From Ectothiorhodospira sp. BSL-9 (GTDB lineage: Bacteria > Pseudomonadota > Gammaproteobacteria > Ectothiorhodospirales > Ectothiorhodospiraceae), in assembly GCF_001632845.1 (NCBI RefSeq), contig NZ_CP011994.1:3172001-3236000 (forward strand): DNA of 64,000 nucleotides, in the 5' to 3' direction. Positions 12,953-16,618 of this stretch are shown piece after piece (the first letter of the stretch is position 1; each line of letters starts with the position of its first letter). Below the pieces are notes generated by a model. That model was not told the DNA's origin. It searched no databases and saw only the letters and a program-made list of their open reading frames with translations. Made by a program: the position numbers and the translations under genes.

Positions 12953-14989
12953 ATGGAACCCCTTCCTTCCCACCTCCCCGGGTTGCCCACCCAGGTCGTC
13001 AAGCGCGACGGTCGTCGTCTGCCGTTTGATGCCGCCCGCATCGAGTCCGCCATCCGCCGGGCTGGTCAGGCCACTGGGGAATTCGGGGACCACGAAGCCG
13101 CCCTTCTCACCTCTCAGGGCGTGAAGGTATTGGCACATCGCTTTGCCCAGGGTCAGTGTCCGGACATCGAGAATATTCAGGATGTGGTTGAACAGACTCT
13201 GATCAGTGCGAACCACCTGCGCACCGCACGGGCCTACATCGTCTACCGGGAACAGCACAAGGCCCTGCGGGCCGACCGCCGCACCCTGGTGGACGTGGAC
13301 GCCTCCATCAGCGAATACCTGGACCGTTCCGACTGGAGGGTGGCCGCCAACGCCAACCAGGGCTATTCCCTGGGCGGTCTGATCCTCAACACCTCCGGCA
13401 AGATGATTGCGAATTACTGGCTCAACCACGTCTATCCGCCGGAAATCGGCCAGGCTCACCGGGACGGCGACTACCATATCCATGATCTGGACATGCTGGC
13501 CGGCTACTGCGCCGGCTGGTCCCTGCGCACCCTGCTGGTGGAGGGCTTCAACGGTGTGCCGGGCAAGGTGGAGGCCGCCCCGCCCCGTCACTTCTCATCC
13601 GCCATAGGTCAGATCGTCAACTTCCTGGGCACCTTGCAGAACGAATGGGCCGGCGCCCAGGCCTTTTCCAGCTTCGACACCTATATGGCCCCCTTCATCC
13701 GCGTGGACCGGCTCGGCTACGCCCAGGTGAAGCAGTACATGCAGGAACTGATCTACAACCTCAACGTGCCTTCCCGCTGGGGCTGCCAGACGCCCTTCAC
13801 CAATCTCACCTTCGACTGGGTCTGCCCGGAAGACCTGCGCGAACAGGTGCCCATCATCGGCGGCCAGGAGCAGCCTTTCTGTTACGGGGATTTGCAGGAA
13901 GAGATGGACATGATCAACCAGGCCTACATCGAGGTGATGACAGAAGGAGATGCCCGGGACCGAATCTTCACCTTCCCCATCCCCACCTACAACATCACCC
14001 CGGATTTCCCCTGGGAGAGCCCCAATACGGAACGGCTATTCGCCATGACCGCCAAGTATGGCCTGCCCTACTTCCAGAATTTCCTCAATTCGGAGTTGTC
14101 TCCAAACATGGTGCGTTCCATGTGCTGCCGGCTGCAACTGGACCTGAGGGAACTGCTCAAACGGGGCAATGGCTTGTTCGGCTCGGCGGAACAGACCGGT
14201 TCCCTGGGGGTGGTCACCATCAACTGCGCCCGCCTGGGCTTTACACATCGAGGCGACGAGGTCGGCCTGCTGGCCCGCCTGGATCAGCTACTGGAACTGG
14301 CCCGCAATAGCCTGGAGATCAAGCGCAAGGTCATCGCCCGACATATGGAGGACGGCCTGTTTCCCTATACCCGGCGTTATCTGGGCACCCTGCGCAACCA
14401 TTTCTCCACCATCGGCGTCAACGGCATCAATGAGATGATCCGCAACTTCACTGATGATCTTGAGGACATCACCAGCGAGGAGGGTCACGCCATGGCCCTG
14501 CGCCTACTGGATCACGTGCGCCAGCGTATGGTCGAATTTCAGGAAGAAACCGGTCATATGTACAACCTGGAGGCCACACCGGCGGAAGGCACGACCTACC
14601 GCTTTGCGCGAGAGGATCGCAAGCGCTATCCAGGCATCCTCCAGGCCGGTAGCCCGGAGGCACCCTACTACACCAACAGCTCTCAACTACCCGTGGGCTT
14701 TACCAACGACCCCTTCGAGGCACTCGCCCGCCAGGAAGATCTGCAGACCCGCTACACCGGCGGCACCGTATTGCATTTGTACATGAGCGAACAAATCTCT
14801 TCCCACCAGGCCTGCAAACGCCTGGTTCGCCGATCCCTGGAGAATTTCCGCCAACCCTACATCACCATCACCCCGATCTTTTCCATCTGCCCCAAGCACG
14901 GCTACATCGCCGGTGAACACGCCTTCTGTCCCAAGTGCGACGCAGAGATCATCGCTCGCAAACAGGCCCAGGCCGCATCGGTGAGCTGA
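12953..14989 (+). CDS. nrdD: Class III anaerobic ribonucleoside-triphosphate reductase, catalytic part
   Basis: NrdD reduces ribonucleotides to deoxyribonucleotides without oxygen, using a glycyl radical. The 678-aa product has an N-terminal ATP-cone (residues about 13-105, VVKRDGRRLPFDAARIESAI), the barrel with DYHIHDLDMLAGYC, and the finger-loop cysteines in MVRSMCCRLQ (C391, C392), one of which should form the thiyl radical. It ends with the zinc-binding pair CPKH and CPKC near residues 650-668 and then stops. The RVxGY glycyl-radical motif that normally follows the zinc site is absent. It appears instead in the next small gene, 29 bp downstream. Expression is probably under NrdR. Confidence 0.95.
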   Translation: MEPLPSHLPGLPTQVVKRDGRRLPFDAARIESAIRRAGQATGEFGDHEAALLTSQGVKVLAHRFAQGQCPDIENIQDVVEQTLISANHLRTARAYIVYREQHKALRADRRTLVDVDASISEYLDRSDWRVAANANQGYSLGGLILNTSGKMIANYWLNHVYPPEIGQAHRDGDYHIHDLDMLAGYCAGWSLRTLLVEGFNGVPGKVEAAPPRHFSSAIGQIVNFLGTLQNEWAGAQAFSSFDTYMAPFIRVDRLGYAQVKQYMQELIYNLNVPSRWGCQTPFTNLTFDWVCPEDLREQVPIIGGQEQPFCYGDLQEEMDMINQAYIEVMTEGDARDRIFTFPIPTYNITPDFPWESPNTERLFAMTAKYGLPYFQNFLNSELSPNMVRSMCCRLQLDLRELLKRGNGLFGSAEQTGSLGVVTINCARLGFTHRGDEVGLLARLDQLLELARNSLEIKRKVIARHMEDGLFPYTRRYLGTLRNHFSTIGVNGINEMIRNFTDDLEDITSEEGHAMALRLLDHVRQRMVEFQEETGHMYNLEATPAEGTTYRFAREDRKRYPGILQAGSPEAPYYTNSSQLPVGFTNDPFEALARQEDLQTRYTGGTVLHLYMSEQISSHQACKRLVRRSLENFRQPYITITPIFSICPKHGYIAGEHAFCPKCDAEIIARKQAQAASVS

Positions 14990-15018
14990 CACACACCATA
15001 CTTCAAGGAGTCCCCACC

Positions 15019-15210
15019 ATGAACAGCAACAACCAAACCCCGGCCGGCATCACCCTGAGCGACGAGGAACGTACCCCATGTGAAATCTGGACCCGGGTGA
15101 TGGGCTATCACCGCCCTGTGTCCGCTTTCAACAGGGGCAAGCAATCCGAGCACACCGAACGCTGCCAGTTCATGGAACCGAGTCCCGAGGCTCATGCGTC
15201 AAACCGCTGA
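15019..15210 (+). CDS. Separate glycyl-radical tail of the anaerobic ribonucleotide reductase (63 aa)
   Basis: The start ATG at 15019 follows a strong AAGGAG site with 8-base spacing, so this is a real independent gene and not a simple read-through. The 63-aa product contains ERTPCEIWTRVMGYHRPV and FNRGKQSE. This matches the extreme C-terminus of thermotogal and bdellovibrio-type NrdD proteins, where the RVxGY glycine carries the radical (here G29). The frame differs from nrdD, and nrdG starts inside its last codons (17-bp overlap). I infer that it binds the NrdD barrel and is activated by NrdG, so that the reductase is a split enzyme. It might alternatively serve as a spare tail, as GrcA does for pyruvate formate-lyase. 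Confidence 0.75.
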   Translation: MNSNNQTPAGITLSDEERTPCEIWTRVMGYHRPVSAFNRGKQSEHTERCQFMEPSPEAHASNR

Positions 15211-15790
15211 GTCGAACCTGCGTATCGGCGGTCTCACACCTCTGACCACCATCGACTATCCCGGACAGTTGGCTGCTGTGCTCTTCTGCCAGGGTTGTTC
15301 CTGGCGCTGCCACTACTGCCACAATGCCCACCTGCAGCCCATGACAAGTGAAAATATCATGCAGTGGGATCAGGTTCGGGCATTTCTGGATCGGCGGCGA
15401 GGCCTGCTTGATGCGGTGGTCTTCAGTGGCGGAGAACCCACTTTGCAAGCGGGATTAGCCGACGCCATGGCCCAGGTACGGGCGATGGGATTCAAGGTAG
15501 GGCTGCATACGGCCGGAGCCTATCCAAAACGCTTGGGCCGGGTACTGCACGTCACCGATTGGGTGGGCCTGGACATCAAGGGCCTGCCTTCGGACTACCC
15601 TCGAATTACCGGCGTACCCGGTTCCGGTGAAGCGGCTTGGGAGAGCCTTGATCGCATCCTGGCTGCCAACGTGGCCCTGGAAGTGCGCACCACCATGGTG
15701 CCCGAGTTGGAAGCATCCCTGCCCTCACTGAAGACCCGACTGGAGCGAGTCGGTGTCCGGCACCACCGCCTGCAAACGGTCAGGGCCTGA
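15194..15790 (+). CDS. nrdG: Anaerobic ribonucleotide reductase activating enzyme (radical SAM)
   Basis: A 198-aa radical SAM protein with the cluster motif CQGCSWRCHYCHN (CxxxCxxC) near residues 33-45 and the SAM-binding VVFSGGEPTLQ. It uses S-adenosylmethionine to make the glycyl radical on NrdD. It overlaps the small glycyl-radical gene by 17 bp, which indicates tight co-expression. The C-terminus (GVRHHRLQTVRA) is slightly unusual: the stop falls just where a recombinase fragment begins, so the last few native residues may have been replaced at the junction. Confidence 0.9.
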   Translation: MRQTAESNLRIGGLTPLTTIDYPGQLAAVLFCQGCSWRCHYCHNAHLQPMTSENIMQWDQVRAFLDRRRGLLDAVVFSGGEPTLQAGLADAMAQVRAMGFKVGLHTAGAYPKRLGRVLHVTDWVGLDIKGLPSDYPRITGVPGSGEAAWESLDRILAANVALEVRTTMVPELEASLPSLKTRLERVGVRHHRLQTVRA

Positions 15791-15886: not shown

Positions 15887-16618
15887 ATGGACGAGCTGGT
15901 CAGAGCCGAAAGCCGATTGAACAAAGGCACCCTGGTGATGAACGCCGTTGCACGGCAATTGATCTCCTTCGCAGTGCGTGCGCCATCCGGACATAACACC
16001 CAGCCGTGGCAGTTCTCGGTGGAACAGGACACGATCCGGATCTACCCCGACCTGTCCCGACGTCTGCCGGTGGTCGACCCGGACAATCACGCACTGTTCA
16101 TCAGCCTCGGCTGCGCGCTCGAAAACCTCGTCGTCGCCGCCTCACAACACGGCCTTGCGGCCAGCGTCGACTACTTCCCCTCCGATGAACCACAGGAGTG
16201 TCTGCGGGTTCGGCTGTCGGCGGGCGCTGACGCAGGCGAAGATACAGGTGTATTGTTCCGAGCGATTCCCGAACGGCAGTCGAATCGGGGGACCTACGAC
16301 GGGCGAGCGATCGTTGCTTCCGATCTTGCCCGGATTCTGGCGGCTAGCCGCCGCGATGCCCTGGAAGTACGCGCGTTCAACGTCGGCGATCCGGACGTCG
16401 AGCCGATGATCCGCTTCGTCCGGGAGGGCAACATCGCCCAGTTCAACGATCCAGCCTTCATCGCGGAGCTCGTGTCGTGGATACGCTTTTCCCGGGGCGT
16501 CGAAGAGGGACGAGCACAGGAACATCACCAGATAGAGCAGCCGGGCCGACATCCATCTCTAGAAGGTAGCCCGCCACTCTACCCCAATGGCTGCCCCCCC
16601 TCATCCTGGGCCATGTAA
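15887..16618 (+). pseudogene. Truncated nitroreductase-like protein (Acg family)
   Basis: The N-terminal part matches the Acg-type FMN-binding nitroreductases: AVRAPSGHNTQPWQF, RLPVVDPDNHALFISLGCALENL, RAIPERQSNRGTYDG. A better start may be ATG 15938 (MNAVARQLIS). The homology continues to ELVSWIRFSRG near 16500 and then breaks into unrelated low-quality sequence running into the end of the next gene. The family is usually over 300 residues, so roughly the last third is missing. It lies in a scarred region next to a recombinase fragment and is probably inactive. Confidence 0.6.

Follow-up and report, generated by a model that had tools for sequence, protein, structure and literature searches.

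In Ectothiorhodospira sp. BSL-9, the class III (anaerobic) ribonucleotide reductase NrdD is very probably composed of two chains, with the glycyl radical predicted to reside on a small subunit of 63 residues that is encoded by a separate gene. The genes lie in a 64,000-nucleotide stretch of contig NZ_CP011994.1 (the window, to which all positions for this locus refer), in the order B12-independent methionine synthase, nrdD (12953-14989), the 63-residue gene (15019-15210) and nrdG (15194-15790). The large chain, hereafter the core, has the C-terminal end ...CPKHGYIAGEHAFCPKCDAEIIARKQAQAASVS, and the small chain, hereafter the tail, contains CEIWTRVMGYHRP, in which the motif glycine is residue 29. 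The features of the locus are as follows:

12953-14989, forward strand: nrdD core, 678 residues, 76.7 kDa (computed), with ATP-cone, barrel domain and zinc ribbon, stopping before the glycyl-radical loop
14123-14128, forward strand: Cys391-Cys392 of MCCRL, supposed catalytic thiyl-radical site, both cysteines invariant in 52 aligned relatives
14888-14938, forward strand: predicted zinc ribbon C646-x2-H649 ... C659-x2-C662, after which the core has no further conserved element (from sequence positions)
15005-15010, forward strand: AAGGAG ribosome-binding site of the small gene, 8 nt 5' of its ATG (read from the sequence)
15019-15210, forward strand: separate glycyl-radical tail gene, 63 residues, 7.2 kDa, matching PF13597 positions 532-562 of 562, conserved in bacterial and viral relatives
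15103-15105, forward strand: codon of Gly29 of the tail (RVMGY), predicted radical site from its alignment column
15194-15790, forward strand: nrdG, radical S-adenosylmethionine activase of the NrdG2 type (TIGR02495, 200.2 bits, cut-off 131.15)

Two complementary pieces of one protein family

The core matched the Pfam family NRDD (PF13597) over profile positions 2-529 of 562 (574.1 bits), as well as NF006126 (1128.7 bits) and the ATP-cone PF03477, and the tail matched positions 532-562 of the same NRDD profile (31.3 bits, cut-off 26.2), so that the two products are complementary pieces of a single family. An earlier note, made from the letters of the window, had described an NrdD that ends after its zinc site without an RVxGY motif, followed by a small gene with its own ribosome-binding site that looked like the missing radical tail and was overlapped by nrdG. 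Each of these points was borne out: no RVxGY was present anywhere in the 678-residue core, whose four GY dipeptides occur as QGY, AGY, LGY and HGY, the overlap between the tail gene and nrdG amounts to 17 nt, and the split glycyl-radical enzyme that the note proposed, with Gly29 as the likely radical residue, is well supported by sequence. The features of a class III NrdD that were found comprise the NRDD domain, a four-ligand zinc ribbon and an adjoining NrdG, with RVxGY occurring in the pair of chains but not in the core chain.

In the whole genome exactly two NRDD matches were detected, namely the core and the 63-residue protein, together with one match for a class I/II reductase large subunit. 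The glycyl-radical profile of the pyruvate formate-lyase (PFL) type, PF01228, had no match anywhere in the genome, and a non-NrdD partner for the tail was therefore dismissed. When the 63-residue protein was compared with Pfam at E-values up to 1, PF13597 was the sole match, PF01228 not being among the hits, and a search of the tail against solved structure chains gave no match at E-values up to 10.

The glycine of RVMGY occupied a single alignment column in all 24 rows that contain it, 13 of them naturally fused NrdD proteins, and the position of Gly29 was invariant in 18 aligned tails. The ratio of non-synonymous to synonymous substitutions (dN/dS) against four congeneric copies (L073, L075, L076 and L079, with L071 and L078 of the same genus left out) was 0.19-0.27 for the tail, 0.07-0.09 for the core and 0.14-0.16 for nrdG, and in the same four copies the identity was 70-74% for the tail and 93% for the core. 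The small gene is thus under purifying selection, with weaker constraint than the core. A catalytic role of Cys391-Cys392 is suggested by analogy with the identical CCRL string of Thermotoga maritima NrdD; the phmmer alignment of the two proteins contains this string, but does not superpose it on the CCRL of the core. Metal binding by the four-ligand ribbon is likewise expected from the family.

Distribution and history of the split form

The same three-gene layout is annotated on the plasmids pHG1 of Cupriavidus necator, pNK6c of Bradyrhizobium diazoefficiens and pSTJ2 of Sulfuricystis, and one fused gene is found instead on pACMV3 of Acidiphilium. When GTDB genomes were scanned for the pattern WTRVMGYHRP, at least 118 loci were obtained. 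Among the 118 matches listed, classification by tblastn gave 91 split and 16 fused loci, three orphan tails (more than 2.5 kb of upstream DNA) and eight unclassed ones (short upstream DNA); since the sequence of L234 is plainly fused, it was reassigned by hand, which brings the final counts to 90 split and 17 fused. Natural fusions suspected in G002 and G289 from equal open-frame lengths were dismissed because a stop codon separates the pieces. Among the named hosts with a split NrdD are Pseudomonas fluvialis, P. brassicacearum, Stutzerimonas stutzeri, Thiobacillus thioparus and Allochromatium palmeri.

The zinc ribbon could be placed in 88 of the split loci among the matches listed. Here the tail was in phase 0 with respect to the core 28 times, in phase 1 35 times and in phase 2 25 times, the core ended with TGA in 54, TAA in 25 and TAG in 9, and the median distance from the core stop to the first in-frame ATG (allowing up to 60 nt before the stop) was 27.5 nt. 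In wider samples, in which a locus was called split when the core match ended near position 530 and a separate tail match was present, NRDD matches occurred in 28 of 274 genomes of the class (20 split, 6 fused, 2 partial or weak) and in 57 of 398 genomes of the phylum (12 split, 44 fused, 1 weak). The split form is therefore common in certain groups and a minority elsewhere.

For 123 cores, 101 of them split and 22 fused, a tree was built by a quick search under LG+G4, without a mixture model, and rooted at the midpoint; core frames below 500 residues or with too many gaps were left out, as were L112, L114-L116 and L327, and L217, L319, L326 and five distant fused rows were labeled by hand. 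At minimum, five changes between the two states were required, compared with a mean of 20.6 for shuffled labels, and the starred branches alone force two. Fused rows outside the split group were other NrdD types and four Rickettsiales, and those nested within it were six Actinomycetota, two Maricaulis, Acidiphilium with L221, L092, and L326. With 42 of 119 inner branches weak, some long branches and a midpoint root, the tree suggests one old split followed by several re-fusions.

In the fused NrdD of L326, from a Bifidobacteriaceae metagenome-assembled genome (MAG), the zinc-ribbon cysteines are substituted (SPEHGY...DPIYD). G157 (L116 / L112) has an NrdD that is interrupted at core position 279/280 by an in-frame, intein-like segment of about 310 residues, and a separate tail as well.

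Unlinked and additional tail genes

In G602 the core lies about 9 kb from the sole tail, which adjoins nrdG, with open reading frames (ORFs) on the opposite strand in between. In its sister G840, 14 kb around the core contain no tail, and the tail and nrdG are located on a different contig. Tail and nrdG were hence unlinked from the core in both genomes examined of that genus and family.

Among the matches listed, 11 genome loci were orphan or unclassed, and nine of these were traced to genomes in addition to one plasmid. Six of the traced genomes have, besides a split core and the tail belonging to it, further tails, three each in G298 and G300 and one each in G296, G301, G302 and G303. G297 carries a fused NrdD, a two-piece core with tail and one additional tail. 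A tail without a core was found in G299, in G304 and on an Allochromatium plasmid, G299 and G304 being metagenome assemblies that may be incomplete. On the plasmid, pALVIN01 of Allochromatium vinosum, the lone tail gene (L065:3510-3719) is annotated as nrdD, and no other NRDD match was present on this plasmid.

In G300, one additional tail has a phage-type integrase to one side and tail-protein and reverse-transcriptase genes to the other, and a second one has an identical ORF layout. Three or more NRDD matches, some of which are second cores or core pieces, were present in at least 20 of the 101 G300 relatives sampled, and in three of these relatives (G744, G779 and G830) a core with an adjoining tail is present in addition to a distant tail.

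In Magnetospirillum fulvum (G296, L351:7928-11220), the second tail gene, with a GTG start, lies directly 5' of the class I genes nrdA and nrdB, and its product resembles the nrdD-linked tail of the same genome over the full length. If a spare were made along with the aerobic enzyme, this would suit repair once anoxic conditions return. No second tail of this kind was found in the other five NRDD-bearing genomes (55 genomes in the family).

Loose tails on viral contigs

A search of viral contigs with the 63-residue protein gave 60 loci, 59 of which had no match for a core or NrdG within up to 4 kb on each side, and a scan for the exact motif gave 92 stretches that partly overlap with the same contigs. 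Across all 151 viral loci (1.19 Mb, overlaps included) at a threshold of 1e-4, a core match was present in L062 only, and NrdG had no match. The viral NrdD of L062 (868-3762) is fused, in a frame of 964 residues with an intein-like insertion before the C-terminal part. The upstream DNA available in the 148 core-less viral rows exceeded 2.5 kb in 96 and was shorter in 52.

After removal of near-copies (judged by 300 nt of flanking sequence), of L023 and L037 (strict motif absent) and of the fused L062, 92 non-redundant viral tails with 79 distinct 37-residue blocks were retained, with core and nrdG absent from the DNA examined. The search motif is present in every one of them by construction; five residues outside it, R-11, N+9, K+12, E+15 and R+19, are kept in all 92 too, and dN/dS of the 37-residue block was 0.12 (218 pairs). 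Counted from the last ATG before the motif, the 84 viral tails with such an ATG have a median length of 59.5 residues, the shortest having 42. The 37-residue block of L016 is identical to that of an alphaproteobacterial MAG locus, L240 (37/37). One large flanking ORF, picked by size, was compared with PHROGs for each of 20 viral loci: 15 gave virion, packaging, lysis or integrase functions, two a DNA polymerase or helicase, and three only an endonuclease or ATPase. Viral contigs with the tail alone are a new observation of this analysis.

Nine of the 92 viral tails (L004, L014, L025, L027, L118, L125, L159, L178 and L184) and the bacterial L213 have an N-terminal PCxH...C...C-x2(3)-C module before the radical loop, which perhaps replaces the zinc ribbon; a first regular expression found none of the nine, which were detected with a looser one. 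On the viral contig of L060 (4001-4123), frames are long only if TGA is read as a sense codon (longest 1005 compared with 157), and the tail has TGA at the place of the conserved glycine in NxGK, which suggests that TGA codes for glycine, as in the code of Gracilibacteria-type hosts.

Structural model

An AlphaFold model was made for the core and tail of Pseudomonas fluvialis, joined into one chain by reading through the stop, with 51 other alignment rows (10 further read-through pairs, 13 fused proteins and 28 cores). The mean predicted local distance difference test score (pLDDT) was 84.5, with values below 50 in the linker (666-679), averages of 80-90 for the blocks in 681-725 and values of 64, 53 and 49 for the blocks in 371-400, which contain the CCRL cysteines. 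Residues 89-722 of the 725-residue model aligned with residues 85-735 of Prevotella copri NrdD (8p2s_B; Z 35.7, 554 aligned, 2.8 Å), so that the aligned range takes in Gly711, given as the radical residue in PMC11226230. The model also aligned with T. maritima NrdD (4u3e_B) up to model residue 724, and structure matches other than NrdD were further glycyl-radical enzymes and class I reductases. Because the chains were joined and 13 fused relatives were in the alignment, the model shows only that the tail fits the place of a covalent tail.

Proposed mechanism

In the NrdD family, NrdG makes the radical on the tail glycine, and the radical goes to a barrel cysteine and is returned in each cycle (PMC11226230), and oxygen cuts the chain at that glycine (PMC3019208). 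In the enzyme proposed here, the large chain would contribute three parts, namely the ATP-cone for allosteric control, the barrel bearing the catalytic cysteines, and the zinc ribbon, and the 63-residue chain would be the usual NrdD end, consisting of glycyl-radical loop and C-terminal strap, supplied from its own gene. It would dock into the barrel like the covalent tail of ordinary NrdD, NrdG would install the radical on Gly29, and the radical would be passed to a large-chain cysteine in every turnover. An oxygen cut would then hit the 7.2-kDa tail and spare the 76.7-kDa chain. With less confidence, we propose that the damaged enzyme may be mended by exchanging the cheap tail, and that loose tails of phages may give the host enzyme spares or extra radical carriers. 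The tail would accordingly be a disposable radical cartridge that is swapped after oxygen damage, and phages of many lineages would carry the cartridge alone and use the large chain and activase of the host for synthesis of deoxynucleoside triphosphates (dNTPs); we consider this extension quite possible, yet offer it tentatively. We know of no earlier spare-part system for a ribonucleotide reductase.

If these proposals are true, many bacteria, pseudomonads and Cupriavidus among them, possess a glycyl-radical enzyme that by normal design keeps its radical on a small subunit of its own, and a viral gene of as few as 42 residues serves a central enzyme of the host. Proteins of 42-66 residues would provide a natural reagent for studying radical installation and transfer in trans, and the spare-part idea would become testable for ribonucleotide reductase. 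The viral tails also indicate a phage gene that can escape surveys for whole NrdD, and enzymes studied as 'NrdD' without the tail may merit a second look.

Several points weigh against the interpretation. Gene layout, complementarity of the two products, conservation, unlinked genes and extra copies can be read directly from the genomes, but binding of the chains, the radical site and catalysis are deduced from sequence, and tail exchange following oxygen damage is proposed with still less confidence. RVMGY is part of the search motif, and its conservation is partly given by construction. Fused NrdD outnumbers the split form in the phylum sample (44 of 57). With joined chains, fused rows and a poorly modeled cysteine loop, the structural model is weak evidence for binding in trans, and it says nothing about the distance between glycine and cysteine. 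The nearest bacterial tail belongs to a split NrdD for all 92 viral tails, a result that is only mildly informative because split rows already make up 120 of the 138 in the bacterial set; the viral rows are, moreover, related to each other. A tblastn search of the tail against 50,697 records of isolated phages gave 17 weak matches (best E-value 0.008, none covering more than 80% of the query), several of which fall inside annotated NrdD, and thus no clear loose tail. The loose tail is accordingly known only from viral contigs, prophage-like stretches, one plasmid and the copy beside nrdAB.

Alternative explanations

The split may have no adaptive role: an old gene fission may simply have been tolerated and kept because the halves bind tightly, with no exchange of tails after oxygen. 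Fused forms occur several times among the split ones on the tree, so that being split is not indispensable, whereas additional tails within one genome and on phages make more sense if free tails have a use. We regard this explanation as possible, though rather doubtful.

Loose phage tails might instead be decoys or inhibitors that sequester the host NrdG or block the barrel, thereby starving the host or rival phages of dNTPs. A tail without core or activase would suit a competitor as well as a spare, and certain loose tails adjoin an integrase in the fashion of cargo genes. A blocker would not, however, require a functional glycine, and purifying selection acts on the sequence block that surrounds the radical glycine; only two of the 151 viral loci miss the strict motif, and both still have the glycine (RVMGYC in L023, RCMGY in L037). 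Since the search patterns favor intact motifs, the argument from glycine retention is weakened, and we judge the decoy explanation unlikely.

It is very improbable that the radical is carried by Gly650, the glycine in the zinc ribbon of the core (CPKHGY), and that the small protein is a regulator. HGY does resemble xGY, and Gly650 is the residue that a 1999 study of Alcaligenes eutrophus reportedly named, but the naturally fused L221 and L263 have HGY in the ribbon and then RVMGY in the same chain, indicating that HGY is no substitute for RVMGY, and the C-terminal end of the family profile is matched by the small protein.

That an ordinary NrdD was broken by a sequencing error or recent mutation, or is joined by programmed frameshifting or stop read-through, might be suspected from the position of the tail immediately 3' of the core and from the prevalence of single chains in the phylum sample, but is dismissed as extremely improbable, because the tail occurs in each of the three phases and the core ends with any of the three stop codons, which speaks against frameshifting or read-through, the split is present in 90 of the 118 loci among the matches listed, tail and core are unlinked in both genomes of one genus, and translation of the tail can begin from a start codon and ribosome-binding site of its own. 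Two of the possible refutations that the earlier note had named could be checked, and neither held: the core contains no second radical motif, and a single continuous frame is excluded by the conservation of the split, the three phases and the unlinked genes.

Relation to known systems

Class III NrdD proteins (PF13597, TIGR02487; T4 1h78, T. maritima 4u3e, P. copri 8p2s) share the core domain, zinc ribbon, ATP-cone, neighboring NrdG and RVxGY tail with the system described here, but the tail is here a separate gene product that is unlinked from the core in two genomes. The likeness to the spare-part protein GrcA drawn in the earlier note holds for the presumed mode of working but not for family membership, the tail belonging to PF13597 and not to PF01228. 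GrcA/YfiD and T4 Y06I, the spares of PFL, are also small autonomous proteins with a glycyl-radical domain that complete a large enzyme and are phage-borne too; the tail, in contrast, belongs to NrdD and would be the regular tail instead of a back-up for an existing one. In the passages covered of PMC8683613, YfiD and Y06I are given as the sole validated spares, and spares for other such enzymes are considered possible. The class II reductase of Pseudomonas aeruginosa, NrdJa and NrdJb, likewise has its C-terminal domain in a separate gene (PMC5704485, in the parts covered). NrdJb is, however, a cysteine-rich zinc-finger domain of the B12-dependent class and stores no protein radical, whereas the small chain described here matches the C-terminal end of NRDD.

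On pHG1 of Cupriavidus necator H16 (Alcaligenes eutrophus), the same layout consists of a 676-residue protein, a 66-residue protein and NrdG. The computed mass of the pHG1 large chain is 76.19 kDa, and its residue 650 is the zinc-ribbon glycine (HGY). For Alcaligenes eutrophus, Siedow et al. in 1999 reportedly described a two-gene nrdD-nrdG system with a protein of 76.2 kDa, which agrees with the computed mass, and are said to have placed the radical at Gly650. If they did so, this assignment should be revisited, since the residue lies in the zinc ribbon. In C. metallidurans, NrdDG is listed as Rmet_5137 and Rmet_5139 in the passage covered of PMC2864759, and the gene in between is taken to be the tail. 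A survey of phage reductases describes nrdD split by introns or fragmentation, and its passages covered here do not mention lone tails (PMC3653736). The earlier note had left open whether the arrangement was already described: neither an NrdD tail with a gene of its own nor tails carried by phages were described in the portions of the full-text literature searched, a scope that excludes subscription papers such as the 1999 Alcaligenes study, yet the NCBI annotation of the small pHG1 gene already reads 'nrdD'.

Neighboring genes

Downstream of nrdG, positions 15887-16618 of the window contain an ORF resembling Acg-type nitroreductases, whose protein residues 25-208 match profile positions 2-190 of 319 slightly below the cut-off and which is possibly truncated. 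In other genomes, matches for nrdA and/or nrdB were found on the same stretches as split nrdD (L238, L355 and L357), so that class I and class III genes are neighbors in some genomes.

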